64,000 nt of DNA from Zhongshania sp. Lineage in GTDB: Bacteria > Pseudomonadota > Gammaproteobacteria > Pseudomonadales > Spongiibacteraceae. Where the stretch lies: positions 372,001 through 436,000 of the forward strand of contig NZ_JARGNU010000001.1 of assembly GCF_029212375.1 (NCBI RefSeq). The letters are read 5' to 3'. A program made the translations under genes and the position numbers. This document shows positions 14,549-42,326 of the stretch, piece by piece; position 1 is the first letter of the stretch, and each line of letters opens with the position of its first letter. The notes beneath the pieces are model-generated. The model saw nothing but the letters and a program-made list of their open reading frames with translations. It did not search any database and was not told where the DNA came from.

Positions 14549-14580
14549 AAAAAGGCGCCAAATGGCGCCTTTTTTGTTTT
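14549..14580 (+). terminator. Rho-independent terminator of the acyl-CoA ligase gene
   Basis: Six-bp GC stem ggcgcc/ggcgcc with a four-base loop (aaat), preceded by an A-run and followed by TTTTTTGTTTTT. This overlaps the longest possible open frame of hrpA and argues that hrpA starts downstream of it. Confidence 0.85.
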
Positions 14581-14591
14581 TAATGGAATGT

Positions 14592-17500
14592 ATGTCTGAA
14601 ATTCAATCGCAAACCAGCACTGCTGCCACCGTATCGCCAAGCCCCCAATCATTGCTGGGGCAGCTGGAAGACTGCTTTTTAGCTGAGCGTTTCGCGCTGG
14701 GTCGCAGCTGTCGTCAATTGCAGCAACTGGCGGCGGGGGGCGCAGACATAAGCCCAAAATTGGCAGCACTGACTGAGCGCTTTGCTGCCTCGCAGGCGCG
14801 GGTTCTGCAGCGCCGCGCGAGCTTGCCGAGCGTAGTCTACCCGCCAGATTTACCGGTAAGCCAGCGGGTAGATGATATTCGCGCGGCCATTGCTGGGCAT
14901 CAGGTGGTAGTTGTGGCGGGTGAGACCGGTTCGGGTAAAACCACCCAGATTCCTAAAATCTGTTTGGATATGGGGCGTGGGGTAGCGGGGACTATTGCTC
15001 ACACCCAGCCGCGGCGCTTGGCGGCGCGGGCGGTAGCGCAGCGCTTGGCCGAGGAGTTAAACACCACCTTGGGTGAGGGTGTGGCTTTTCAAATACGTTT
15101 CCAGGAAGTGAGCTCGCCCAATAGCCATATTAAATTAATGACCGACGGTATTTTGCTGGCGGCTATTCAGCGCGACCGTTTTTTGAGCGAATACGATACC
15201 ATCATTATTGACGAGGCCCATGAGCGCAGCCTAAACATCGATTTTTTGCTGGGTTATTTAAAAACCCTGCTGCCTAAACGCCCCGATTTAAAGCTGATCA
15301 TCACCTCGGCCACCATTGATGTGGCACGCTTCTCTGAACACTTTAATAATGCGCCGGTTATTGAAGTGTCTGGTCGGAGCTTTCCCGTTGAATATCGCTA
15401 TCGTCCCCAAGAAGAACTGAGTGCCGACAATGATATTGGCGAGGCAGTTGAAGCCGTACTGCGCGAATTAATCGCTGAAGGCGCGCAGCGCAGCGGTGAT
15501 ACCTTGGTGTTTCTCAGTGGCGAGCGGGACATTCGCGATGTGACCCGCCATTTGCGCAAAGCGGATTTGCCTGGCGCAGAGGTATTACCACTGTACTCAC
15601 GTCTTAGCACCGCCGAGCAGCAGCGCATTTTTGATTTACGTGGGCGACGGGGCTGGCGGGTGGTGCTGGCGACCAACGTCGCGGAAACCTCACTGACCGT
15701 GCCGGGCATTCGCTATGTAATCGACGGCGGCACTGCACGGATTAGCCGCTATAGCGTGCGCAGCAAGGTGCAGCGTCTGCCGATTGAGCCAATCTCCCAG
15801 GCCAGCGCCAATCAACGGGCTGGTCGCTGTGGGCGGGTCGCTGCCGGTATTGCTTATCGCTTGTACAGCGAGGCCGATTATTTAAGTCGGCCGGTGTATA
15901 CCGAGCCAGAAATTCAGCGCACCAATCTCGCTGCCGTTATTTTGCAAATGCTCCAGCTCAAGCTGGGGGATATCAGTGCTTTTCCCTTTGTGGATGCGCC
16001 AGATAATAAATTTGTGAATGACGGCTTTGCCTTGTTGGCAGAATTGGGCGCCGTTAAAGACGGCAAACTCAATAAACTCGGTCAGCAACTGGGCCGCTTT
16101 CCTGTTGATCCTCGGATAGGACGCTTGCTATTGGCCGCTGCTGACGGCGGCTGCCTGCGGGAAATGCTGATTATCGCCAGCGCGCTAAGTATTCAAGATC
16201 CCCGCGACCGGCCAGCAGATAAGCAGCAAGCTGCCGATGAAAAGCATCGCCGTTTTTGGCAGCCAGATTCCGATTTTATGGCCTTTGTTGGCCTGTGGGA
16301 CTACGCCGAGGAGCAGCGCCAGGCATTGTCGGCAAGCCAGTGGCGTAAGCTCTGTCAGCGGGAATTTTTATCGTGGACGCGGATGCGGGAATGGCGCGAG
16401 GTTCACCATCAAATCACCCTGATGTGTCGGCAGTTGAAGTTGCCGGTCAATCGCGAGCCCGCTGATTTTGACAGTATTCACCGCGCCCTGTTGCCGGGCT
16501 TTTTGGGCCAGATAGCCAGCAAAGACGAAGAGCGAGAGTATCTCGGTGCTCGCAACCGCAAACTGCGGATATTCCCTGGCTCCTCGTTATTTAAAAAAGC
16601 ACCGAAATGGATTGTGGCTGCCGAGCTTGCCGAAACCACCCAGCTCTATGCCCGCTGCGTCGCTAAAATCGATCCAGAATGGGTGTTTGGCATTAATGAC
16701 GAACTGTTAAAACGCAGCTATTACGAGCCCCATTGGCATAGCCGCAGTGGCCGAGTGATGGCCTTTGAGCAAACCATGCTCTACGGTTTGCTGATTCGCG
16801 ATAAAAAGCGGGTGCATTACGGGCCGATATCGCCGGTAGAAAGCCGCGAAATTCTGATTCGCCAAGCCTTGGTTGAGGGACGTTACTTCGGTAAGGCAGA
16901 ATTCTTTCGCCACAACCGTAAACTTATTGACGAGATTGGCGAGCTGGAAGACAAGGCCCGCCGCCGCGATATTTTAATTTCCGACGATGAGCTATTTCGT
17001 TATTACGACGAGCGTATTCCCGAGGGCATCATTACCGCCGCCCATTTGGAAAGTTGGCTAAAAAGCACCGCAGCGCCACGGACTTTATTTTTAAGTCGTG
17101 GTGAGTTAATGCGTCATGCGGGCAGTGATGTTACCGAGCAACAGTTTCCCGACACCTTGCACTGCGCCGGTATGATACTGGCGCTGAGTTACCACTTTGA
17201 GCCTAATCATCCTGCAGATGGGGTTAGCGTGTCAGTGCCGCTGGCAAATCTACCAAAGCTGCCAGAAGGGCGTTTGGAGTGGCTGGTGCCTGGTCTGCTG
17301 AGGGATAAGTGCATTGCGCTGTTAAAAACCTTGCCTAAAGTCCAGCGCAAACAACTGGTGCCGGTGCCGGATTTTGTCGACAAGGCGCTGCCGATGTTGT
17401 CGGTAAATGACGTGGGCCTATTGCCGAGCTTGGCCGACGCACTGCGCAAGATTAGCGGTCTGCAGATTGATGTGGCCGAGTGGTCGCGCAATAACATCGA

Positions 17501-18530
17501 TAATTTCTACCGCATGAATATTCGGGTGCTGGATAACGCCGGAAAACTACTGGCCCAAAGCCGAGATTTACGGGCACTGTGCGCGGAATTGGCGGTGCAG
17601 GTGCAGCAGGGTATAGCTGAAGAACGTGGCAGTGGTTTTGAAACCAAAACACTGACCAACTGGGGTTTTGAACGCCTAGAAGATCGCTATGAATTTAAGC
17701 AGGGCGGGGCAACCTTGGTCGCTTACCCCTGTTTGCGGGATCAGGGCGAGAGTGTTGAATTAAGCTTGGCCGAGACTGAAGCCGATGCCCAACAGGCTAA
17801 TTTGCGTGGTGTGCAGCGCTTGCTGCTATTGCGTTTGGTGCAGCAGTGCAAAACCCTGCGGGCGAGTTTATTTCGCAGCAATACCGCGCAATTGCAATTT
17901 TCGGCGGTGGGCGAACAAAAGAAACGCTGGTTGGAAGATTGCCTGCTGGCTGCCGCCCAAAATTGCTTCGCGCTGAGCGAGGAAGCCTTGCCGCGCACCC
18001 AGACAGAATTTGAGCAGGTATGGGAAACTGGCCGCGCCGGTTTTGTCGCCGATGCCGAGGCCTGCGCCGAGCTGCTCAACACGGTGCTGGGCAATTACGC
18101 CGAGATTCGCCGCAGCCTTAAAAAACTCAATTCGCTAAGCTGGATCCACAGTATTAACGATATTAACCGCCAGCTGGACGCCTTGTTTTTTGAGGGATTT
18201 ATTACCGCTCTTAATCGTGATGAGCTCAGTCAGTACCCGCGTTACCTGCAGGCTATTTTACAGCGTATTAGTAAACTGGATGGCGCCTATCAGCGCGATC
18301 GGCAGTCGACTTTGGCGTTTGAACCTCTGCAGCAGCAGTTTGCTGAGTTTGTAAAAAAATTGCCCGAAAAGCATCGTCGCCATCCGCTCGTGATGGACTA
18401 CCGCTGGCAATTAGAGGAGCTGCGGATCTCCCTGTTTGCCCAAAATATGGGGACGCGAATGCCGGTGTCGGAGAAACGCTTGAAGGTTCTGTGGAAAGCG
18501 TTGGTGCAAGATGTAACATCACTCAATTGA
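14592..18530 (+). CDS. hrpA: ATP-dependent RNA helicase HrpA (DEAH box)
   Basis: A DEAH/RHA helicase of about 1,312 residues, full length for HrpA (about 1,300). Motif I is GETGSGKTTQIPKI, motif II IIIDEAHERSLNIDFL, motif III SATID, motif VI QRAGRCGRV. After the helicase core come the HA2/winged-helix and OB-fold regions and the long DUF3418 C-terminal domain typical of HrpA. HrpA rescues stalled or collided ribosomes and processes mRNA. The open frame extends to 14562, but that would start inside the upstream terminator stem; ATG 14592 or ATG 14583 are the realistic starts, and 14592 is preceded by tgga at short spacing. A perfect 14-bp palindrome (18520-18533) spans the stop codon. Confidence 0.95.
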   Translation: MSEIQSQTSTAATVSPSPQSLLGQLEDCFLAERFALGRSCRQLQQLAAGGADISPKLAALTERFAASQARVLQRRASLPSVVYPPDLPVSQRVDDIRAAIAGHQVVVVAGETGSGKTTQIPKICLDMGRGVAGTIAHTQPRRLAARAVAQRLAEELNTTLGEGVAFQIRFQEVSSPNSHIKLMTDGILLAAIQRDRFLSEYDTIIIDEAHERSLNIDFLLGYLKTLLPKRPDLKLIITSATIDVARFSEHFNNAPVIEVSGRSFPVEYRYRPQEELSADNDIGEAVEAVLRELIAEGAQRSGDTLVFLSGERDIRDVTRHLRKADLPGAEVLPLYSRLSTAEQQRIFDLRGRRGWRVVLATNVAETSLTVPGIRYVIDGGTARISRYSVRSKVQRLPIEPISQASANQRAGRCGRVAAGIAYRLYSEADYLSRPVYTEPEIQRTNLAAVILQMLQLKLGDISAFPFVDAPDNKFVNDGFALLAELGAVKDGKLNKLGQQLGRFPVDPRIGRLLLAAADGGCLREMLIIASALSIQDPRDRPADKQQAADEKHRRFWQPDSDFMAFVGLWDYAEEQRQALSASQWRKLCQREFLSWTRMREWREVHHQITLMCRQLKLPVNREPADFDSIHRALLPGFLGQIASKDEEREYLGARNRKLRIFPGSSLFKKAPKWIVAAELAETTQLYARCVAKIDPEWVFGINDELLKRSYYEPHWHSRSGRVMAFEQTMLYGLLIRDKKRVHYGPISPVESREILIRQALVEGRYFGKAEFFRHNRKLIDEIGELEDKARRRDILISDDELFRYYDERIPEGIITAAHLESWLKSTAAPRTLFLSRGELMRHAGSDVTEQQFPDTLHCAGMILALSYHFEPNHPADGVSVSVPLANLPKLPEGRLEWLVPGLLRDKCIALLKTLPKVQRKQLVPVPDFVDKALPMLSVNDVGLLPSLADALRKISGLQIDVAEWSRNNIDNFYRMNIRVLDNAGKLLAQSRDLRALCAELAVQVQQGIAEERGSGFETKTLTNWGFERLEDRYEFKQGGATLVAYPCLRDQGESVELSLAETEADAQQANLRGVQRLLLLRLVQQCKTLRASLFRSNTAQLQFSAVGEQKKRWLEDCLLAAAQNCFALSEEALPRTQTEFEQVWETGRAGFVADAEACAELLNTVLGNYAEIRRSLKKLNSLSWIHSINDINRQLDALFFEGFITALNRDELSQYPRYLQAILQRISKLDGAYQRDRQSTLAFEPLQQQFAEFVKKLPEKHRRHPLVMDYRWQLEELRISLFAQNMGTRMPVSEKRLKVLWKALVQDVTSLN

Positions 18531-18670
18531 GTGCGTCTAACAAATACATCGAATTTGGCCGTTGCAGCGTATGAGTGGTATCGCTTAAAACTGCTATGCT
18601 CAACTTGGTTTATATAGAACAATCAATTTTAATTTAGCCGTGTTACTGACTACCACTTTGGAGAATAACA

Positions 18671-19192
18671 ATGTCTCAGATTAATTTTGCAAAAAAACCG
18701 CTGGCAGCGGCGTTTGGCGCTGCCCTGTTGGCTTCGGCGATGAGTCCCGCGATGGCGGGAGAAAACCCCTTCGCAGCCAAAAGTTTAAGCTCTGGCTATG
18801 AATTAGCTATGGGGAGTTCAGACAAAGCGGCGAAAGCTGAAGCAAAGATCGATGCGAATAAGACCGGTGGCGAAGCGCAGTGTGGCGCCGACAAAGCAAA
18901 AGCAGCGCACGAAGGCAAATGCGGCGAGGCGAAATGTGGTGCCGACAAAGCCAAAGCTGCTCACGAAGGTAAATGCGGCGAGGCGAAATGTGGTGCCGAC
19001 AAAGCTAAAGCAGCGCACGAAGGTAAATGCGGCGAAGCGAAATGTGGCGCCGATAAAGCCAAAGCTGCTCACGAAGGTAAATGCGGCGAGGCGAAATGTG
19101 GTGCCGATAAAGCCAAAGCGGCTCATGAAGGTAAGTGCGGTGAGGGCAAGTGTGGCGAAGCTAAGTGCGGCGCCGATAAAATGGCTAAGTAA
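18671..19192 (+). CDS. hvfA: HvfA/bufferin-type RiPP metallophore precursor with repeated EGKCG motifs
   Basis: A 173-residue secreted, Lys/Ala/Gly/Cys-rich protein. The N-terminal Sec signal peptide (hydrophobic AAAFGAALLASA, cleavage AMA|GENPF) is followed by ENPFAAKSLSSGY, typical of this precursor class. The rest is five near-identical 18-residue repeats and a shorter tail, with 12 cysteines: six in EGKCG and six in EAKCG/EAQCG. In characterised relatives (HvfA of Haemophilus influenzae, bufferins of Caulobacter) cysteines in EGKCG-type motifs are converted by an MNIO enzyme plus partner into oxazolone/thioamide or thiooxazole groups that bind copper. The two following genes encode exactly these partners. 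Shine-Dalgarno ggag lies seven bases before the ATG. Copper is the expected metal by analogy; which cysteines are modified is not readable. Confidence 0.9.
   Translation: MSQINFAKKPLAAAFGAALLASAMSPAMAGENPFAAKSLSSGYELAMGSSDKAAKAEAKIDANKTGGEAQCGADKAKAAHEGKCGEAKCGADKAKAAHEGKCGEAKCGADKAKAAHEGKCGEAKCGADKAKAAHEGKCGEAKCGADKAKAAHEGKCGEGKCGEAKCGADKMAK
18881..19150 (+). repeat. Five tandem 54-bp coding repeats
   Basis: Units begin at 18881, 18935, 18989, 19043 and 19097, each 54 bp (18 codons, C-G-A-D-K-A-K-A-A-H-E-G-K-C-G-E-A/G-K), with a partial copy to the end of the gene. Copies differ mainly at third codon positions, so they arose by in-frame duplication and keep the protein repeat under selection. 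Slippage or recombination between copies would change the number of metal sites in steps of two cysteines. Confidence 0.95.
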
Positions 19193-19235
19193 ATAATCCG
19201 TCTCCGGAAGGTGGCCAGCGTGAATGGAAGAGCCT

Positions 19236-20108
19236 ATGACTAGTGAATCAAGCGCACAGGCCGGTTTGGGCTTGCGGCGGGGCTTAATGCCCGAGCTGAA
19301 AAGCCTTGCTGGCAGCGAGCTGGATTTTCTTGAGGTTGCTCCAGAAAACTGGGTGCATATTGGCGGCCGTTACGGCCGCTCATTTCGCGAGCTAGCGGAG
19401 CGCTACCCGATTTATTTACATGGTTTATCCTTAAACATTGGTGGTTTTGCACCGCTAAATAAGGAGCTGTTAACGGATATTAAACAGTTCATGGCCGATT
19501 TTAATTGTCCACTGTACTCCGAACACCTCACTTACTGTGGCGACGAAGGGCAGCTCTACGATTTGCTGCCTATTCCATTTACCGAAGAGGCGGTGTATCA
19601 CGTTGCCGAGCGGGTTAAACAAGTTCAGGACGTTTTAGGTCAGCGGATATTGTTGGAGAATGCGTCCTACTACGCAGCACCAGCGCAGGCCATGAGCGAA
19701 AGCGAATTTATTAACGCGGTATTGGCTGAGGCGGACTGCGATTTGCTCCTAGACGTAAATAATATCTTCGTGAATAGCGTAAACAATCGTTACGATCCCG
19801 TTCAGTTTTTACATTCATTACCCTTGGCAAGAGCCCGCTATATCCATATAGCAGGGCATTTTGACGAGGCGGAAGATTTACGAGTAGACACCCATGGGGC
19901 TGATGTAATCGATCCGGTATGGGCGCTGTTAGATGAAGCCTATCGCCTTTGCGGGCCGCTGCCGACCTTGTTGGAGCGAGATTTTAATTTTCCACCCATG
20001 GCCGAATTGTTGTTAGAAATTGGGCAAATCCGCCGCGCACAAGCCCATGCCAATAGCCAAGGTATAAGTCATTTCTCACCGTTAAATGCACGCAAGCGAG
20101 CTGGCTGA
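19236..20108 (+). CDS. hvfB: MNIO (DUF692) family RiPP maturase, HvfB type
   Basis: About 290 residues, a TIM-barrel of the multinuclear non-heme iron-dependent oxidase family (MbnB/HvfB/BufB). N-terminal GLGLRRGLM is family-typical. Candidate iron ligands lie in the usual blocks: LHGLS (H62), SEHLTY (E96/H97), ENASYY (E141/N142), DVNNIFVN (D173/N175), HIAGHFD (H204/H208/D210), DTHG (D218/H220) and LLERD (E247). In characterised systems the enzyme oxidises cysteines of the precursor using O2. It follows the precursor by about 40 bp and overlaps the partner gene by one base (TGATG). ATG 19236 was preferred over ATG 19224 because ggaag lies five bases upstream; 12 bp of doubt remain. Confidence 0.93.
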
Positions 20109-20854
20109 TGAAGCCATTTCAGCAAGTACAGCAAAGTATGACAGCCTTCGTTCGCGACCCAGATGCTTGCGTTGGACCGGAAGGCATAGAAACGCGGCGT
20201 TTAGCGATTTACCGTGATCTTTTCTTTAATAATATCGAAGGTTTTCTCAGTAATGGCTTTCCGGTGTGTCGGAGCTTATTTAGCGATGACGACTGGCATG
20301 CACTGGTGCGGGATTTTATGCGCCAGCACCGCTGCGAAAGCCCCTATTTTTTGCGTATCGCCGAGGAGTTTCTCAGCTATTTAGCCGAGCAAGGCGACGC
20401 TCGGGACGATCCGGCGTTTCTAATGGAATTGGCCCATTATGAATGGGTTGAGCTGGCGCTAGACATAGCAGAAGATGAGTTCCCTGAGTCAGCGCCGTTT
20501 AGCGATGTTCTGGCGGCTCGCCTGAGCGTGTCGCCATTGGCGTGGTCTTTGGCGTATCAATTTCCTGTACAGCATATTGGTCGCGATTATCAGCCCGCTG
20601 AGCCGAGCGCTGAGCTAAGCTATATTGTTGTTTATCGCAATCGGCAGGATGCAGTGCAGTTTTTGGAAATTAACGCCGTCACCGCTCGCTTATTAGCGCT
20701 GCTTGCCGAGTTTCCAGCATTAGAGGGGGCGGCACTGTTGAGTACAATCGCTCAAGAACTCAATGTTGAATTGGCTGCGCTTGCGGATTTTGGACGCGAT
20801 ATTTTGGTGAAATTACTGGATCTGGACATATTATTTGTGAACAAGTGGTCATGA
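20108..20854 (+). CDS. hvfC: HvfC-type RiPP maturation partner (DUF2063 N-terminal domain)
   Basis: A 248-residue protein. The N-terminal third is the DUF2063 domain once labelled putative DNA-binding (RRLAIYRDLFFNNIEGFLSNGFPVCRSLF...FMRQHRCESPYFLRIAEEFL); the rest is a poorly conserved helical and strand region. In H. influenzae and Caulobacter systems the equivalent protein (HvfC/BufC) binds the precursor and works with the MNIO enzyme. Its start overlaps the maturase stop, which supports a stoichiometric partnership. The DoxX-like membrane protein that often ends such operons is absent; mlaA follows instead. Confidence 0.9.
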   Translation: MKPFQQVQQSMTAFVRDPDACVGPEGIETRRLAIYRDLFFNNIEGFLSNGFPVCRSLFSDDDWHALVRDFMRQHRCESPYFLRIAEEFLSYLAEQGDARDDPAFLMELAHYEWVELALDIAEDEFPESAPFSDVLAARLSVSPLAWSLAYQFPVQHIGRDYQPAEPSAELSYIVVYRNRQDAVQFLEINAVTARLLALLAEFPALEGAALLSTIAQELNVELAALADFGRDILVKLLDLDILFVNKWS

Positions 20855-20928
20855 TCGAAGTGGTGCCAAATACGTGGGTATTAGGTATAGTGTTGACCAG
20901 TTTTAAGCTTAAAGAGTAATTGGGGTTG

Positions 20929-21657
20929 ATGATACCAATGCAAAGAAAAGTCGGTGCCTTATTCGTGCTGTTATCTGTGCTTGGAATAAGTAATGTTTTT
21001 GCCGAGAATGATGGCGATCCGCGTGACCCGTGGGAAGGTTTCAATCGGGGGGTATTTGCTTTTAACGATACCGCTGATGAATACCTTGTTCAGCCCATTG
21101 CCCGAGGTTATCGCAAGATAACCCCAGCTATTGTCGATCAAGGCATAGCCAATTTTTTCAATAATATTGGCGAGATCAAAAACATGGGCAATGACCTGCT
21201 GCAAGGCAAGGCGAGCGATGTACTGGTCGATGGTGGTCGTTTTATTATAAATACTACCGTTGGGGTAGTCGGTTTTTTTGATGTTGCTAGTTATATTGGC
21301 CTGAAGCGAGAGTCCGAAGATTTTGGCCAAACCCTCGCCGTGTGGGGTGTTGGCTCTGGGCCTTATCTGGTGTTGCCATTTTTAGGGCCAAGTAGTGTTA
21401 GGGATGGCTTTGGCACAGGTGTTGATTCCTACGTGTCGGTAACTGGGGCTATTGATCCAGAGTACGCGCGCTACGCCATGAGCGGCCTAGATTTATTGCA
21501 GACCCGTGCTAGCTTATTAGGTACTGAGGCGCTAATGTCCGGTGATAAATACACTTTTTTGAAAGATGCCTACCTGCAGCGCAGAGAGTACCTAATTAAT
21601 GACGGTCAGCTTAAAGATGACTTTGGCGATGAAGACTTTGAGTCTTTTGACTTCTGA
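20929..21657 (+). CDS. mlaA: MlaA (VacJ) family outer-membrane phospholipid-trafficking protein, apparently not lipidated
   Basis: About 242 residues with family hallmarks DPWEGFNRGVFAFNDTAD, the NFFNNIGEI block, GFFDVAS, DFGQTLAVWGVGSGPYLVLP and a C-terminal acidic tail. MlaA sits in the outer membrane with porins and removes mislocalised phospholipids from the outer leaflet, passing them to MlaC. A signal peptide is clear (GALFVLLSVLGISNVFA|ENDGDP), but it ends in a signal-peptidase-I type site and there is no lipobox cysteine, unlike E. coli MlaA. The frame opens at a TTG (20920); ATG 20929 follows gggg closely and ATG 20938 is also possible. The order mlaA-rssB-rssC-tal matches Pseudomonas. 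Confidence 0.9.
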   Translation: MIPMQRKVGALFVLLSVLGISNVFAENDGDPRDPWEGFNRGVFAFNDTADEYLVQPIARGYRKITPAIVDQGIANFFNNIGEIKNMGNDLLQGKASDVLVDGGRFIINTTVGVVGFFDVASYIGLKRESEDFGQTLAVWGVGSGPYLVLPFLGPSSVRDGFGTGVDSYVSVTGAIDPEYARYAMSGLDLLQTRASLLGTEALMSGDKYTFLKDAYLQRREYLINDGQLKDDFGDEDFESFDF

Positions 21658-36037: not shown

Positions 36038-36847
36038 ATGGACTTAAAACTCGTCAGCTTGGATGGCAATGAAGCCTACGCTATTGCGACCGATACGGTT
36101 GTTATTGGCCGCGACAGCGATAGTGATATTACTATCACTAAGGATTTGTTGTCGCGCCGCCATGCCAAGTTAAGTTACATCGATGGTAGCTGGGTACTCG
36201 AAGATCTCGGTTCTACCAACGGTACGTGCATTAATAACCGTTTATTGAAAAGACCCACAGAAGTAAAAAGTGGCGATGTCATTAAATTTGGCGAAGCGGC
36301 GTATTACTTAAAAAGTGAAGCAGAAGCGGAGCGCACCATTGTTGCGGCGCGCTTGCCACAGAAAGATTCTTATAGCGGTGGCTCGGTGGTGATAGATGAC
36401 GAGCCCGATAGCGAATTAACCTCCTTTCAACAATCCTACCAATTGCCCTCTGGCTGGACCGATACCGCCATTCGCAACAGTAAATACCCAAAAGAGCTGG
36501 TTGATCAGCGTATCCATCGGGCTATTGGCACTAAACAAATAAAGCCCGAAGTGGCCTTGGTGTTTTTCTTTGCCGACGGACGGAGTTTAGTGTTTGGTGT
36601 TTCCGCTAAAAATAGTGATACCTTTTGGACGATTGGCCGGCAAGAGAACTTAAAAATTCGTATTGATGATCCTAGCATCTCAATGCTTCACGCCAAATTA
36701 ATACATAAAAATGGCAATTGGTGGATTGAGGATGTTGGCGCTACCAATGGCATTCGAATAGACGGCGAAGCCTGTCAAAAGGCTGTTCTCCAAGATAGTC
36801 AATTGCTCAGTTTAGGGCGTATTGAAATGGTGTTTCGCAAATTATAA
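36038..36847 (+). CDS. Protein with two FHA (phospho-threonine-binding) domains
   Basis: A 269-residue protein. First FHA, about residues 1-95: GRDSDSDITI, SRRHAKL and GSTNGT carry the pThr-binding residues R25, S39/R40, H42 and N61. Second FHA, about 180-269: TIGRQENLKI, SISMLHAKL, GATNGI; it keeps G-R and T-N-G but lacks the R of SRRH, so it may bind weakly. The linker is acidic/polar, with a helical RIHRAIGTKQIKPEV stretch. No membrane span or signal peptide. It opens a run of five co-directional genes that ends with a Ser/Thr kinase, the obvious source of phospho-threonine. Confidence 0.9.
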   Translation: MDLKLVSLDGNEAYAIATDTVVIGRDSDSDITITKDLLSRRHAKLSYIDGSWVLEDLGSTNGTCINNRLLKRPTEVKSGDVIKFGEAAYYLKSEAEAERTIVAARLPQKDSYSGGSVVIDDEPDSELTSFQQSYQLPSGWTDTAIRNSKYPKELVDQRIHRAIGTKQIKPEVALVFFFADGRSLVFGVSAKNSDTFWTIGRQENLKIRIDDPSISMLHAKLIHKNGNWWIEDVGATNGIRIDGEACQKAVLQDSQLLSLGRIEMVFRKL

Positions 36848-36908
36848 AAAATCAATTTTTCGTCGTAGCGATGGGTTAAGCGACATCGGACTCATCATCA
36901 GGGACTAG

Positions 36909-38576
36909 ATGAACGAGGCATTAGAGATGAATAGGTATATTGGCTGCAATCAGGCAGCAATGAATGCGGCCGCAGCGATTATAGCGTTTGTACTGCTAGC
37001 ATCTTGCGCCAACACCAGTGACTCCAAACTTAGTAGTGGCGCGCCAGCGAGTAGCGAAGAAATTATTGCGGGCTTGCAAATTGTCGATTGCCTTTTACCT
37101 GGGCAGCTGCGCAAACTCGGTAATATGACGTATTTGTCGCCGCGGCGACCAATCAAAACCACCGCAGCCGATTGTAATGTCCGCGGCGGCGAGTACGTCG
37201 CCTATGACCGTGCCGACTATAAAACAGCCTTAAAAATATGGTTGCCAACGGCGGAGCAGGGCGATGCCGAGGCGCAATTAGCGGTGGGTGAAATTTTTGA
37301 AAAAGGTTTGGGTGCTGAACCGAATTACGAGGCGGCAGTATTGTGGTACCAAAAGGCCGCAGCGCAGGGCAATAAAAGCGCCCAATTTAATTTAGGCACA
37401 ATGTATGAGCAGGGCTTGGGGGTAGCACAAAACAAATTACAGGCACTCAATTTATACCGCGAAGCGTGGGGTATGCCTGCCGATAGCGTAATTTTTCAAG
37501 ACGCGGCGCGCAGTGAACAACAAGCCTTACGCAAGGCGCTTGAAGCCCAGCTAAGCGCTAAAAATGATCAGCTCGCTTTAATGGAGCGCCAGCTCGCCAG
37601 CCTTAAAAAGAAAACAGCCAGTAAACAACCCTCAGACAGTGCGCCTGTGACGGAGTTGGCGACCCTAACGCAGATAGTGGCGTCCTTGCAAAATGATCGC
37701 GCTAGCGTTGAAAAACAGTTGTCTACAATTCCTCGGCTGCGAACGCCGGCGGCGAGTCTCAACGCCACTCCGGCACAAGCTGCGACTGCAGCGGAAATCA
37801 AAGTTGCAGATATGGACTTTGGGCGCTATTACGCCTTGATTATTGGCAATCGTAATTACACGCAGTTAGAACACTTAGAAACGCCCCTGAATGACGCCCG
37901 TGAAGTTGGCGAAATTTTAGAAAAACAATATGGATTTCAAGTGCAGCTGCTGCTCGATAGCGACCGTCTTACGGTGATGAAGGCGATTAACGAGTTGCAT
38001 AGCGTGCTCGGCGAAAACGACAACCTCTTGATCTACTACGCTGGTCACGGCTCGATGATTAATGTCGGGGAACGTGATACTGGCTATTGGTTACCGATTA
38101 ACGCTGACCCACCGCCAAATGATGCGTCGTGGGTTTCAAATGATTTTGTCAGCAATCATTTGGGTCGAATTCAAGCTAAACGGGTTTTGGTCATTGCCGA
38201 TTCCTGTTATGGCGGATTGCTGTCTTCCGCACCTGGGCATTTATTTTTTGGCCAAACTACTGGGGCGGGAAGTAGCGATTACATCAAGTATAAGCTGCCT
38301 CGGCGCTCCCGCTTGTTGTTGTCTTCTGGCGGAGATAAGCCCGTTATCGATGAAGGTGGTAGGGGGCATTCGGTATTTGCCCAAGAGTTGATTGACACTC
38401 TGCGCAGTAACGTCGGTGTGCTTTCGGCGCCGGATCTTTACGCCAGTATTCGCGGGCCGGTGAAAGCCCGCGCAGCAGTAAATCAGTTTGTTCAAGAACC
38501 TGTTTACAAAAGTATAAAGGGCGCAGGTCACGAAGTCGGGGATTTCTTTTTTGTACCGAAAGCCCTTAGCCAATAG
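36909..38576 (+). CDS. Caspase-family (peptidase C14) protein with lipobox and Sel1-like repeats
   Basis: A 555-residue protein. N-terminal lipoprotein-like signal (AAAAIIAFVLLASC, Cys33), Sel1/TPR-like repeats at about 103-188 (AEQGDAEAQLAVGEIFEKGLG; AAQGNKSAQFNLGTMYEQGLG), a coiled-coil region of about 195-275, and a caspase p20-like domain from about 303, with catalytic pair H380 (YYAGHG) and C433 (IADSCYGG). Metacaspase-like cysteine peptidases usually cut after Arg/Lys; specificity here is unknown. If the lipobox is used, the protease sits on the periplasmic side. M1 or M7 could be the start. Second gene of the FHA-to-kinase cluster. Confidence 0.88.
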   Translation: MNEALEMNRYIGCNQAAMNAAAAIIAFVLLASCANTSDSKLSSGAPASSEEIIAGLQIVDCLLPGQLRKLGNMTYLSPRRPIKTTAADCNVRGGEYVAYDRADYKTALKIWLPTAEQGDAEAQLAVGEIFEKGLGAEPNYEAAVLWYQKAAAQGNKSAQFNLGTMYEQGLGVAQNKLQALNLYREAWGMPADSVIFQDAARSEQQALRKALEAQLSAKNDQLALMERQLASLKKKTASKQPSDSAPVTELATLTQIVASLQNDRASVEKQLSTIPRLRTPAASLNATPAQAATAAEIKVADMDFGRYYALIIGNRNYTQLEHLETPLNDAREVGEILEKQYGFQVQLLLDSDRLTVMKAINELHSVLGENDNLLIYYAGHGSMINVGERDTGYWLPINADPPPNDASWVSNDFVSNHLGRIQAKRVLVIADSCYGGLLSSAPGHLFFGQTTGAGSSDYIKYKLPRRSRLLLSSGGDKPVIDEGGRGHSVFAQELIDTLRSNVGVLSAPDLYASIRGPVKARAAVNQFVQEPVYKSIKGAGHEVGDFFFVPKALSQ

Positions 38577-38652
38577 GGCGAGAAATAAACGCGAGCAAGG
38601 CATTATTTAATAGATGTGCGCCATAGATTGCACAATAAGAGGATAACGGGTT

Positions 38653-39918
38653 GTGGCCAAAATACATTTAAAAACAGTGGTGTTGTCTGGGCTTATAAGC
38701 GCGGCTGCTATTGCGTTGCCACTGCAGGCAGCTGAAATCTGTAAAGGTCGTCAAGAATCGAATGGCGGTCAGGAAGGTCCCCCAGACCAGCCTACCGGTG
38801 GGGTTGGTACTGGCGGTGAGTATGTTAGTTTTGCCGCGCCTTCGTTTACCCGCGCAAGTGAATCGGCGGAACCGAGTAACAGTGTTTCGACTGATTCCTG
38901 CGGCGCAGTGGTGACCGAAAGCGGTGGTGGGCTAGCGCAAGACACCGCGATGAATCTAGGCAGTAAATTTAATGCCCTTCGAGTCATTTCAAGAGGCATT
39001 GGCAGTGACAAAAATAGCGAAAGCAGCACGTTGGGTGGCGCGGCGGGCGCGGGTGATAATGCGCTGCTCGATGGCAGTCGTTTCTCGGTATTTAGTTTTG
39101 CAGATCATGTTGAGCGCGAGCGCAAGGCCACCGCGAGCAGCGGTGGGTATGAACAGAAGAACAACGCATTGACCCTTGGTTTTGATTACCGCATAGACGA
39201 TAGCAGCTTTGCTGGTATGTCGATTAGTCGAAGCGACGGCGACAGCGATCTCGATAGCCAGCTCGGTGGCAGCGAGGTATCCCTCACAATGCTCGGCTTT
39301 CACGGCGTTCACTACTGGCCAGAACATTATGTCTCGGTATTAGTTGCCTACGGTGCAATGGACATTGATATCGCTCGTCGTAACGCTGGCGACAGCTTTG
39401 ACGCCGCCACCAACAGCAATTATTGGTACGGCGATCTGACACTGGGCACCGAATATCAGTATGGCGCGCTAAGGCTTAGCCCAACAATACGGGCATTGTT
39501 AATGACCGGCGAGATAGACGCCTACACCGAACGCTCTGCTTCAGGCGCTGGCACCGTGCGCAGTATTAACGCCCAAGATATCGATTCTAATTTGTTGAGC
39601 TTGGCCGTGCAGGCAGATTATTCGCTACTACAGTCGTGGGGTGTGCTGCTGCCTTCTATGCGGGCTGAGTTTATTTTTGATCAAGGCGACGCATATAAAA
39701 CCAATGGTCAAACCTTGAATGACAGTGATAAAACCGTAATTGGTAGTATTTCAGATCTCTCTGACGAGCCCGACTCCAGCACACTGGCGGTGTCGTTGGG
39801 ACTGTCTGGGCAATTCAAGCGGGGCTTTGCAGCCTATGCCGTATATGAGCGTTTATTTCTGCACGATTATCTGAATAAGTACACCGCGACCTTGGGTGTT
39901 CGCTATGAGCTGCCATAA
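38653..39918 (+). CDS. Outer-membrane protein with C-terminal autotransporter-type beta-barrel
   Basis: A 421-residue protein. Signal peptide (LSGLISAAAIALPLQAAE), a Gly/Ser-rich region of about 30-130, then a barrel domain with alternating aromatic/polar strands from about 135 to the end (LGFDYRIDDSSFAGMSISRSDGDS; YWYGDLTLGTEYQY; AAYAVYERLF; ATLGVRYELP), matching the autotransporter beta-domain pattern. The passenger is very short, so this may be a plain barrel rather than a secretor. The last residue is Pro, not the usual aromatic; the preceding Y-E-L still suits a final strand. Start GTG 38653. In the FHA-kinase cluster. Confidence 0.82.
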   Translation: MAKIHLKTVVLSGLISAAAIALPLQAAEICKGRQESNGGQEGPPDQPTGGVGTGGEYVSFAAPSFTRASESAEPSNSVSTDSCGAVVTESGGGLAQDTAMNLGSKFNALRVISRGIGSDKNSESSTLGGAAGAGDNALLDGSRFSVFSFADHVERERKATASSGGYEQKNNALTLGFDYRIDDSSFAGMSISRSDGDSDLDSQLGGSEVSLTMLGFHGVHYWPEHYVSVLVAYGAMDIDIARRNAGDSFDAATNSNYWYGDLTLGTEYQYGALRLSPTIRALLMTGEIDAYTERSASGAGTVRSINAQDIDSNLLSLAVQADYSLLQSWGVLLPSMRAEFIFDQGDAYKTNGQTLNDSDKTVIGSISDLSDEPDSSTLAVSLGLSGQFKRGFAAYAVYERLFLHDYLNKYTATLGVRYELP

Positions 39919-39959
39919 AAAGTCACTATTGCGATTGGTAGTTTATTGATGAGGACGCA

Positions 39960-40787
39960 ATGACTTTTCTAAATGGCGTTTTTCTCAGCTTGCGAATTTG
40001 CCTGCTGATTTTTATGTTTAGTGCCTGTAGTAGCCCCACTCAGCGTATCGATGCCACCGCTCAGAAGTATGGTATGGAAAAGCAGGTGTTAATGGGGCTT
40101 GGTTTTAAGCACGTTGTGTATTCTCGTCCGCCGTCAAAGGCTGAGGTGCTACATATTTATCTCGATGGCGATGGCAGCCCTTGGTTGCGTGGTCGCTATA
40201 TTGCGAGCGACCCCACCCCCACGCAGTCGCTGGGACTCAGCCTAGCGAGTTTAGATACGCAGGCCGACGCGGTTTACCTTGGTCGCCCCTGCTATTTAGG
40301 TTTGGTTAATGAACCAGGTTGTAACGAATCAATGTGGACTTCGGCCCGCTATAGTGAAGCGCTGGTGCGTAGCATGGCCAAGGCTGCCGACTCGTTGATT
40401 GCCGCACGCGGCGCTAAACAGGTTAGGTTGATTGGTTATAGCGGTGGCGGTAGCTTAGCGATGCTCATGTTGAGGTATATGGAAAAGGTCGATGCAGTAA
40501 TCACGATTGCCGCAAATTTGGATACAAGGGCATGGACCAGCTACCATAATTACTTGGCGCTAACAGATTCGCTCAATCCCATGGACAACCTTTTTCCAAC
40601 GGGCATTCGGTATTGGCATTTTGCTGGGAGTGACGATGACAATGTGCCCCCACAACATCTTAGCGCATTTGTTGCTAAACACGGCGGCGAATCGCAGGTG
40701 ATACGTGGCTTTGATCATTACTGTTGTTGGAGCGAGCGCTGGCCAAGTTTGCTGAGTACCGCCTTGGGCCACGGCAGCGGAGGTTAA
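39960..40787 (+). CDS. Lipoprotein-like alpha/beta hydrolase
   Basis: A 275-residue protein with a lipobox (LLIFMFSAC) and an alpha/beta-hydrolase fold: YLDGDGSP at the oxyanion region, nucleophile elbow GYSGGG, probable acid in FAGSDDD and His in GFDHYCCW. YLGRPCYLG and CNESMWTSARYSE form the cap side. The substrate is unknown; ester, thioester or lipid hydrolysis are possible. The Ser-His-Asp set appears intact, so an active enzyme is expected, anchored in the envelope. Only nine bases separate it from the kinase gene, which argues for co-expression. Confidence 0.85.
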   Translation: MTFLNGVFLSLRICLLIFMFSACSSPTQRIDATAQKYGMEKQVLMGLGFKHVVYSRPPSKAEVLHIYLDGDGSPWLRGRYIASDPTPTQSLGLSLASLDTQADAVYLGRPCYLGLVNEPGCNESMWTSARYSEALVRSMAKAADSLIAARGAKQVRLIGYSGGGSLAMLMLRYMEKVDAVITIAANLDTRAWTSYHNYLALTDSLNPMDNLFPTGIRYWHFAGSDDDNVPPQHLSAFVAKHGGESQVIRGFDHYCCWSERWPSLLSTALGHGSGG

Positions 40788-40796
40788 AACGCGGGT

Positions 40797-42326
40797 ATGG
40801 CGGATAATGACAAAACTCAAATCAGCAAGCTGACGCCAAGCGCCTCGCAAGATGAGGTCACGGAGTTTGAGTTTGAGTTTGAGTTTGATACAGATCAGAC
40901 CGGTCTGGCGCCTACCGATGGCGAAAAAACCAAGCTTAATCACCAAGACATTGGCAGTGATGCTTTAACCGTTGTTGTGGGCGACGCCACCCAGCTAACG
41001 TCGAGGGCAGATGCCACGGTACTGACGAGTCACGCCGGTGATGATACAGATTTTTTTGTAGACGATAGTGGGCCGGTCAACACGGCTACCAGCCCCAGCT
41101 TCGATGTTGGCAGTGTGCTTAAAGATCGATTTCGGCTGGAAAAAAAGCTCGGTGAAGGGGGCATGGGCGCCGTTTTCCTCGCGGTGGATCAACGTAAATT
41201 AGAGGCCAAACACCCTGACCCCTATGTGGCGATAAAGCTGATTACCGGCGATTTTTTGCAGGATCCGCTGGCCTATATTTCGCTGCAGCGAGAAACCGAT
41301 AAGTCTCAAAAACTTGCCCATCCAAATATTATTACCGTATACGATTTCGACCGCGACGGTGATGTGTTTTTTATGACTATGGAGGCCTTAAAGGGCCGCA
41401 CCTTAGATCAAATTATTAGTGATCGGGAGCATTGCCAACGCCACGCGCGGGCTTATATTGAGGCGCTTGCCCAAGGAATTGCCTACGCGCACAAGCGCAA
41501 TATTGTGCACTCAGACCTTAAACCCGCCAATATTTTTGTGACCGATGAGGGCGTGCTAAAAATCCTCGATTTTGGCATTGCGCGAGCGCTTTACGGCACT
41601 GGTGATGATCTTGGCGAGGTGGTGGGGCTCACCCCAGGCTACGCCAGTTGCGAAATGTTTGAGGCGGCGCCGCCTCATACCTCCGATGACGTTTACGCGC
41701 TGGGGATTATTGCCTATCAGCTTTACACCGGAGAGCATCCCTTCGCAAAAGCGAAAGCGCCAACCGCGCGAGACAAGGGCCTGCGGCCCAAGCGAATTGC
41801 CGGTATTGCGGCTTACCAGTGGCGGGCTATTGTTGCTGCGCTGGCATTTAAGCGAGATGAGCGCTGTGCGGATGCCGGTCAGTTTTATCGGCAATTTACC
41901 GGTGCAGGACGCAGTATTCGCCAGCTGAGTGCGGTCGTGGTGTTAATGCTTGTTGGTTTTGGTGGCTACATTGCATTTTACGAGCCCGCGCAGGGGCCGG
42001 ATATTCCCTTTGCGGAACTGCCTGTCGCTGTGCAGCAGCAATTTGATAACAATATGAGTGAAGCAGAACTGGCCTTAAAATTTAAAGACATTAACGGCGG
42101 GTTATTCTACCTCGATAAGGCGTATGCACTGCATCCCCGTAATGAACGCGTAATGGCGAAGCTAGATGATTTGGTGCTGAAATTGCGTGCCGGTATTACG
42201 GCTGCGCCACTTGAGCCAGCGCAGCAGATACAACAACTGGACGAATTATTGAAATACGATTCGCTGGCTCAAAACCCAGAATTACTCGCGCTAAAGAAAA
42301 GCCTTAGCGGGCAGGCTGTGCCTTAG
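40797..42326 (+). CDS. Membrane-anchored Hanks-type Ser/Thr protein kinase
   Basis: A 509-residue protein. Residues 1-105 are a disordered, acidic, Thr-rich region with several T-x-x-[hydrophobic] sites (DKTQIS, DATQLT, ATVLT) of the kind FHA domains bind once phosphorylated, plus an EFEFEFEF tract. The kinase domain (about 112-370) has the P-loop GEGGMG (119-124), K147, HSDLKPAN (catalytic D240), DFG (258-260) and [13 protein letters not shown]. One membrane span at about 376-395 is followed by a 110-residue helical, TPR-like periplasmic domain. It should phosphorylate itself and cytoplasmic partners, the double-FHA protein being the best candidate. Last gene of the cluster; its stop overlaps convergent cysK by four bases. 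Confidence 0.92.
40863..40886 (+). repeat. Four tandem GAGTTT hexamers within the kinase gene
   Basis: Four exact copies of GAGTTT encode an alternating Glu-Phe tract. Because the unit is six bases, copy-number change alters length but not frame. Confidence 0.9.

Follow-up and report, generated by a model that had tools for sequence, protein, structure and literature searches.

The EGKCG proteins, of which about 2,000 have been described, are precursors of peptides modified by an MNIO and a PME1 partner protein. The available text of that survey leaves open whether one MNIO-PME1 pair can serve several precursors or precursors encoded at another locus (PMC12452194). In Haemophilus influenzae, the doxX-hvf genes are reported to depend on RpoE2 after HOCl treatment (PMC7907618). 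Oxazolin has been reassigned to a 5-thiooxazole (PMC13097082), and in the sections consulted the products of both HvfBC and FonBC are now given this structure (PMC13097082, PMC13419390). The active iron state is stated to require HvfC (PMC13419390). According to the available part of the FonABC study, each Lys-Cys of the peptide FonA67-80 (SGEAKCGEGKCGEK) undergoes a loss of 4 Da, in EAKCG and EGKCG motifs alike. A one-repeat substrate was left unmodified by FonBC, and among the non-Pro variants at positions 1 and 2 the sole unprocessed one carried Arg at position 1 (PMC13097082). Among the ten papers listed by a literature search on Zhongshania or Spongiibacter, copper and RiPPs, none deals, by title, with this system in the genus.

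The locus described here lies in a 64-kb stretch, termed the window, on contig C1 of a Zhongshania genome (G000; 3.8 Mb, 29 contigs). It comprises the following features.

14562..18530, + strand: gene of an HrpA-type helicase, upstream neighbour, named by eye; conserved flank, outside the pathway
18512..18538, + strand: TGTAAC-N16-CGTCT, putative promoter of hvfABC for an ECF sigma factor; overlaps hrpA at its 3′ end
18671..19192, + strand: hvfA (hvfA1), presumably exported precursor of 173 amino acids with 12 Cys, NF050137
18764..18805, + strand: conserved segment NPFAAKSLSSGYEL, codons 32-45, just past the presumed signal peptide
18869..19145, + strand: tandem repeat array of 54 bp (18 amino acids), 5.1 copies, TRF score 421
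19224..20108, + strand: hvfB, MNIO (PF05114), a peptide-modifying oxidase by family
20108..20854, + strand: hvfC, PME1 partner protein (DUF2063 and NGO1945_C)
20920..21657, + strand: mlaA, downstream neighbour (PF04333, 248 bits); conserved flank, outside the pathway

The original prediction named an HvfA-HvfB-HvfC locus of three consecutive genes. The genes are real and lie on the same strand, and the family assignment is right. HvfA reaches 162.7 bits in the model of the repeated KCGExKCG domain (NF050137, cut-off 19.5) and stays below the strict HvfA equivalog model NF050188 (65.1, cut-off 95). HvfB matches PF05114 with 332 bits (cut-off 25) and the HvfB-type MNIO model NF003818 with 419 (cut-off 360), sharing the blocks LDVNN, VDTHG and LERDFNFPP with 3BWW. 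HvfC passes the HvfC-type PME1 model NF050145 (306.5, cut-off 142) and also matches PF09836 and 3DEE (E 6.9e-14). The closest named HvfB relatives are from Zhongshania, with 75-89% identity. Of the 61 named loci that span at least 9 kb, 41 have relatives of both hrpA and mlaA near the hvf genes, which suggests that the position of the hvf genes is old. The window locus adds one more member to the EGKCG/oxazolin ("captophorin") group, which is already known, and is by itself ordinary. Elsewhere in the window, positions 36038-42326 encode an FHA-domain protein and a Ser/Thr protein kinase, separated by about 4 kb.

HvfA1 carries its 12 cysteines in 12 motifs, namely six EGKCG, five EAKCG and one EAQCG, as had been counted before. 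The strict alternation of EGKCG and EAKCG proposed together with this count fails at the end of the array, which reads EGKCG-EGKCG-EAKCG (motif order EA, EG, EA, EG, EA, EG, EA, EG, EA, EG, EG, EA). The gaps between cysteines are alternately 13 and 5 residues, the last two being 5-5, and the unit has 18 residues. Pairwise codon comparison of units 1-5 gave 51 synonymous and 4 nonsynonymous differences over ten unit pairs that are not mutually independent. All four nonsynonymous differences fall on a single K/Q site. Random single changes would be synonymous in 21% of cases, and this bias suggests selection at the protein level. At window positions 18839-18853 (residues 57-61), the sequence is EAKID, compared with E[AG]KCG in nine of nine aligned relatives; among the ten aligned precursors, only the window HvfA lacks the Cys at residue 60. 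This replacement of a conserved Cys suggests that the number of sites drifts, and 14 A1 precursors of the genus contain 8 to 13 Cys. The presumed signal peptide ends at AMA|GENPF, as judged by eye. The segment that follows, NPFAAKSLSSGYEL, has similar counterparts in 28 of 28 A1 and A2 precursors of the genus examined, and a looser L..GY pattern occurs in 53 of 57 precursors of named loci. It is possibly a recognition element for HvfC. AlphaFold2, run on the ten aligned precursors, returned no confident fold (pLDDT 39), which leaves the beta-helix reported for 17-residue repeats unsupported for HvfA.

A second locus is present in the same genome. The precursor model also matches contig C6, where hvfA2 (114 amino acids, 8 Cys) is transcribed divergently from hvfX. 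The C6 hvfX scores 233.9 bits in NF050144 (cut-off 80). The whole-genome search with this model returned matches on C6 and C5 only, and none for a DoxX-type hvfX in the window operon on C1. Adjoining hvfX on C6 are an ECF sigma gene and then a gene for an anti-sigma factor of 83 amino acids, whose start overlaps the sigma stop. The sigma protein contains regions 2 and 4, and its partner the C/H-X23-26-H-X3-C-X2-C signature, the ZAS motif as defined in the accessible text of PMC7907618. The motif was found in 18 of the 19 loci scanned; the exception, L161, is a cut-off locus, and L170 from the same genome has the motif. The C5 match (G000:C5:97613-98164) is a second hvfX-family gene above the NF050144 cut-off. 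It was not counted as part of the system because second copies in four relatives adjoin helicase and MoeB/PrmC-like genes, as identified by eye.

The two loci have a promoter-like site in common. In the window it begins 159 bp before hvfA (18512-18538) and is the sole exact match to TGTAAC-N16-CGTCT on both strands of the 64 kb, with 0.03 expected and a match in 3 of 100 shuffles. It remains the only match when one mismatch in the -10 element is allowed at spacer 16. Alignment of the hvfA2-hvfX gaps revealed opposed TGTAAC blocks, and a TGTAAC with 16-bp spacer faces both ways in all 14 gaps. Towards hvfX the -10 element is CGTCT, with one mismatch in G016; the one directed at hvfA2 deviates from it at one or two positions. 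In all, 19 of the 21 family genomes have the site ahead of hvfA or hvfB. Under a rule set for 14 genomes (within 400 bp, exact -35, spacer 16, at most one -10 mismatch), it precedes hvfA or hvfB in 12, with 0.01 expected from shuffles. Four further genomes (G015, G001, G002, G003) added under the same rule all have it, and three (G004, G005, G010) were counted by exact matches about 144-242 bp upstream of hvfA1, these seven without shuffle control. In G010 the initial 169-bp stretch was empty and the site lies further upstream. Outside the preset rule, G009 has a site at -433 and G020 one with a 17-bp spacer. Among named loci, the site was found near the precursor start in 11 of 56 (0.06 expected), and these 11 are not independent, as five belong to Zhongshania and four to Alcanivorax records whose sites are nearly identical. 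The signal is one of position only, with no genome-wide enrichment: exact matches across the 21 genomes number 51, compared with 63 for the backward control, and in G000 alone spacers of 15-17 give 6 matches compared with 8. Judged by coordinates, twenty-three of the 51 lie at the two loci, 15 before hvfX and 8 before hvfA1 or hvfB. As the pattern is not enriched genome-wide, the other sites are not claimed as a wider sigma regulon. One exact match in G000 (L203 3192-3218; G000:C3:273691-273717) lies between genes assigned by eye as Dps-like and secreted thioredoxin-like, possibly a further target of the sigma factor.

Gene arrangement varies across the 21 family genomes. Ten of them, including G000, combine hvfA1BC with the hvfA2/hvfX-sigma locus. 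Four (G011, G012, G016, G018) have hvfBC without hvfA1, and hvfA2 adjoins hvfX-sigma; their gaps between HrpA and hvfB are about 45-160 bp, measured from ORF starts that, as throughout the genome surveys, were set mechanically. In the named locus of Spongiibacter marinus DSM 17750 (L075), no precursor was found adjoining hvfBC. G014 and G019 contain hvfA1BC and an unlinked hvfX-sigma and lack hvfA2. G015 has hvfA1BC, no hvfX match, and an anti-sigma match elsewhere. hvfABC is present in G001-G003; in G001 and G002 hvfX is matched at another place, with no sigma gene in the short stretch examined, and G003 has no hvfX match above the cut-off. In G020, sigma, anti-sigma, hvfA, hvfB, hvfC and hvfX are contiguous, and the best G000 match of its sigma factor is the C6 sigma (161 bits; next 70). 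In a tree of HvfB/HvfC, which excludes G014 because its HvfC escaped the ORF filter, the A2-only genomes do not form one clade; support is modest, and hvfA1 may have been lost once or twice. A single MNIO is encoded in G000, and likewise in 18 of the 21 family genomes. In G012, a second MNIO gene adjoins one for a DUF2282 precursor (G012:C11:104601-106798), together with weak HvfC-like and HvfX-like matches below the cut-offs; the neighbouring precursor indicates that this is probably a separate Buf1-type cluster. Outside the family set, a Paraperlucidibaca MAG (L105, 3492-6687) encodes sigma, an anti-sigma with ZAS motif, hvfA, hvfB and hvfC contiguously, and in its variant precursor EAKC sites outnumber EGKC.

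We propose, as a likely account taken as a whole, a captophorin/oxazolin-type RiPP system with two loci, one sigma factor and one HvfBC for both precursors. HvfC would bind the precursor HvfA in the cytoplasm, and HvfB would oxidise its Lys-Cys sites to 5-thiooxazoles, each losing 4 H. In HvfA1, modification probably extends to all 12 sites or almost all. The peptide would be exported by Sec and bind copper in the envelope. The window locus would be half of the system, and hvfA2 with the divergent hvfX-sigma-anti-sigma genes the other half; one ECF sigma factor is probably responsible for transcription of both, and HvfA1 and HvfA2 are probably both substrates of the single HvfBC pair. We infer modification, copper binding, sigma control and modification in trans; the observed basis consists of gene identities, synteny, the promoter-like sites, the linked arrangement in G020 and the four hvfA2-only relatives.

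The oxazolone/thioamide or thiooxazole chemistry offered in the original prediction is outdated, as the available text of PMC13097082 and PMC13419390 assigns 5-thiooxazoles. That prediction also asked whether half or all of the sites are modified, and suggested a distinct product. If only the EGKCG or only the EAKCG sites reacted, such a product could arise, and paired motifs with Ala in the second do recur across the genus. FonBC, however, acts on EAKCG as well as EGKCG and tolerates the tested non-Pro variants at positions 1 and 2 save Arg at position 1, so modification of half the sites is very unlikely. For the homologue FonA the question is thus answered in the reported data, as motifs of both kinds lose 4 Da: FonBC is not hindered by Ala at motif position 2, and a division into two site classes by Ala and Gly was rejected on the same data. 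One site may differ for another reason. Since FonBC is reported to be inactive on a one-repeat substrate, the isolated first EAQCG of HvfA1 may stay unmodified. Nothing indicates a chemically distinct product; across the loci sampled, it is mainly this genus that has Ala in the second motif. In 57 of 80 named loci, motif position 2 holds Gly in 431 cases and Ala in 35, and in adjacent pairs Ala stands once in the first and 15 times in the second motif; the other 23 loci, some with a variant motif and some on cut contigs, yielded no precursor with at least three motifs.

A more serious alternative, which we nevertheless consider unlikely, is that HvfBC modifies only its neighbour HvfA1, and that HvfA2 is an unmodified Cys-rich sink for metal or oxidant with shared ancestry and regulation. 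Such a role for additional precursors is given in the available text of PMC12452194, and the repeat steps are unlike, 54 bp in hvfA1 of the window and commonly 48 bp in hvfA2. HvfA2 nevertheless retains the leader segment seen in HvfA1, and its sites are of the EGKCG, EAKCG or ESKCG type. In G011, G016 and G018 it is the sole EGKCG-type precursor found, next to one MNIO with an open reading frame, and these genomes, like G000, are devoid of a DUF2282 precursor (PF10048). The shared site, the contiguous genes of G020 and the four genomes with hvfBC but no adjacent precursor argue that one HvfBC pair probably serves unlinked precursors belonging to a single stress regulon. The regulatory part could also be read otherwise, in that another regulator recognizes the TGTAAC-N16-CGTCT-type sites or the C6 sigma controls its own locus only. 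Further sigma-like matches in G000 would fit, but the equal spacing at both loci and the sigma and anti-sigma genes directly adjoining hvfABC in G020 and L105 make this improbable. That one HvfBC acts on two unlinked precursors with differing repeats under one redox-type ECF sigma factor, and in four relatives in trans only, is a further-reaching reading that we consider somewhat more likely than not.

The interest of the locus sits outside the window, for the missing hvfX, hvfA2, sigma and anti-sigma genes are on another contig and were invisible to the original prediction. The arrangement with two precursors, divided between loci that share one site, is a variant that deserves testing. The genus provides a clean test of a single enzyme pair with two precursors or with a distant one alone, and the shared site may help to locate pathway parts outside a cluster. 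If the proposal is true, the hvfA2-only relatives would be a natural demonstration that these RiPP enzymes do not require their substrate gene to be linked.

Among known systems, methanobactin biosynthesis (MbnABC) also employs an MNIO acting on Cys for copper, with an oxazolone/thioamide product; HvfB scores 47.4 in the MbnB model TIGR04159, below the cut-off of 325. The bufferins (Buf1/Buf2) likewise combine Cys-rich precursors with an MNIO and a PME1 protein; their precursors are exported by Sec, as is presumed for HvfA1, and some Buf1 clusters carry sigma genes, as the second locus does here. G000 has no PF10048 (DUF2282) match, and its HvfB stays below the cut-off of NF050167 (260, cut-off 310). 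The mmrABC genes of Microbulbifer comprise the same three genes with two-Cys cassettes and are reported to yield a copper-binding RiPP; the precursors are built of repeated EGKCG units and contain five to eight Cys, and the available description mentions no split locus (PMC12538549). Fontiphorin (FonABC) from Fontimonas thermophila, a captophorin, shares EAKCG/EGKCG pairs, MNIO and PME1 with the window locus. Its chemistry is reported as demonstrated. In FonA, Ala occupies the first motif of the pair shown and there are seven sites, while in HvfA1 it occupies the second, with 12 sites in all, and neither placement looks diagnostic. Oxazolin (HvfABC-X) of H. influenzae involves the same four gene families. 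There, hvfABC and hvfX are described as one operon with six EGKCG sites, controlled by the ECF sigma factor RpoE2 with the ZAS anti-sigma HrsE, both encoded elsewhere. G000, in contrast, has two loci and two precursors, and the sigma gene adjoins hvfX.
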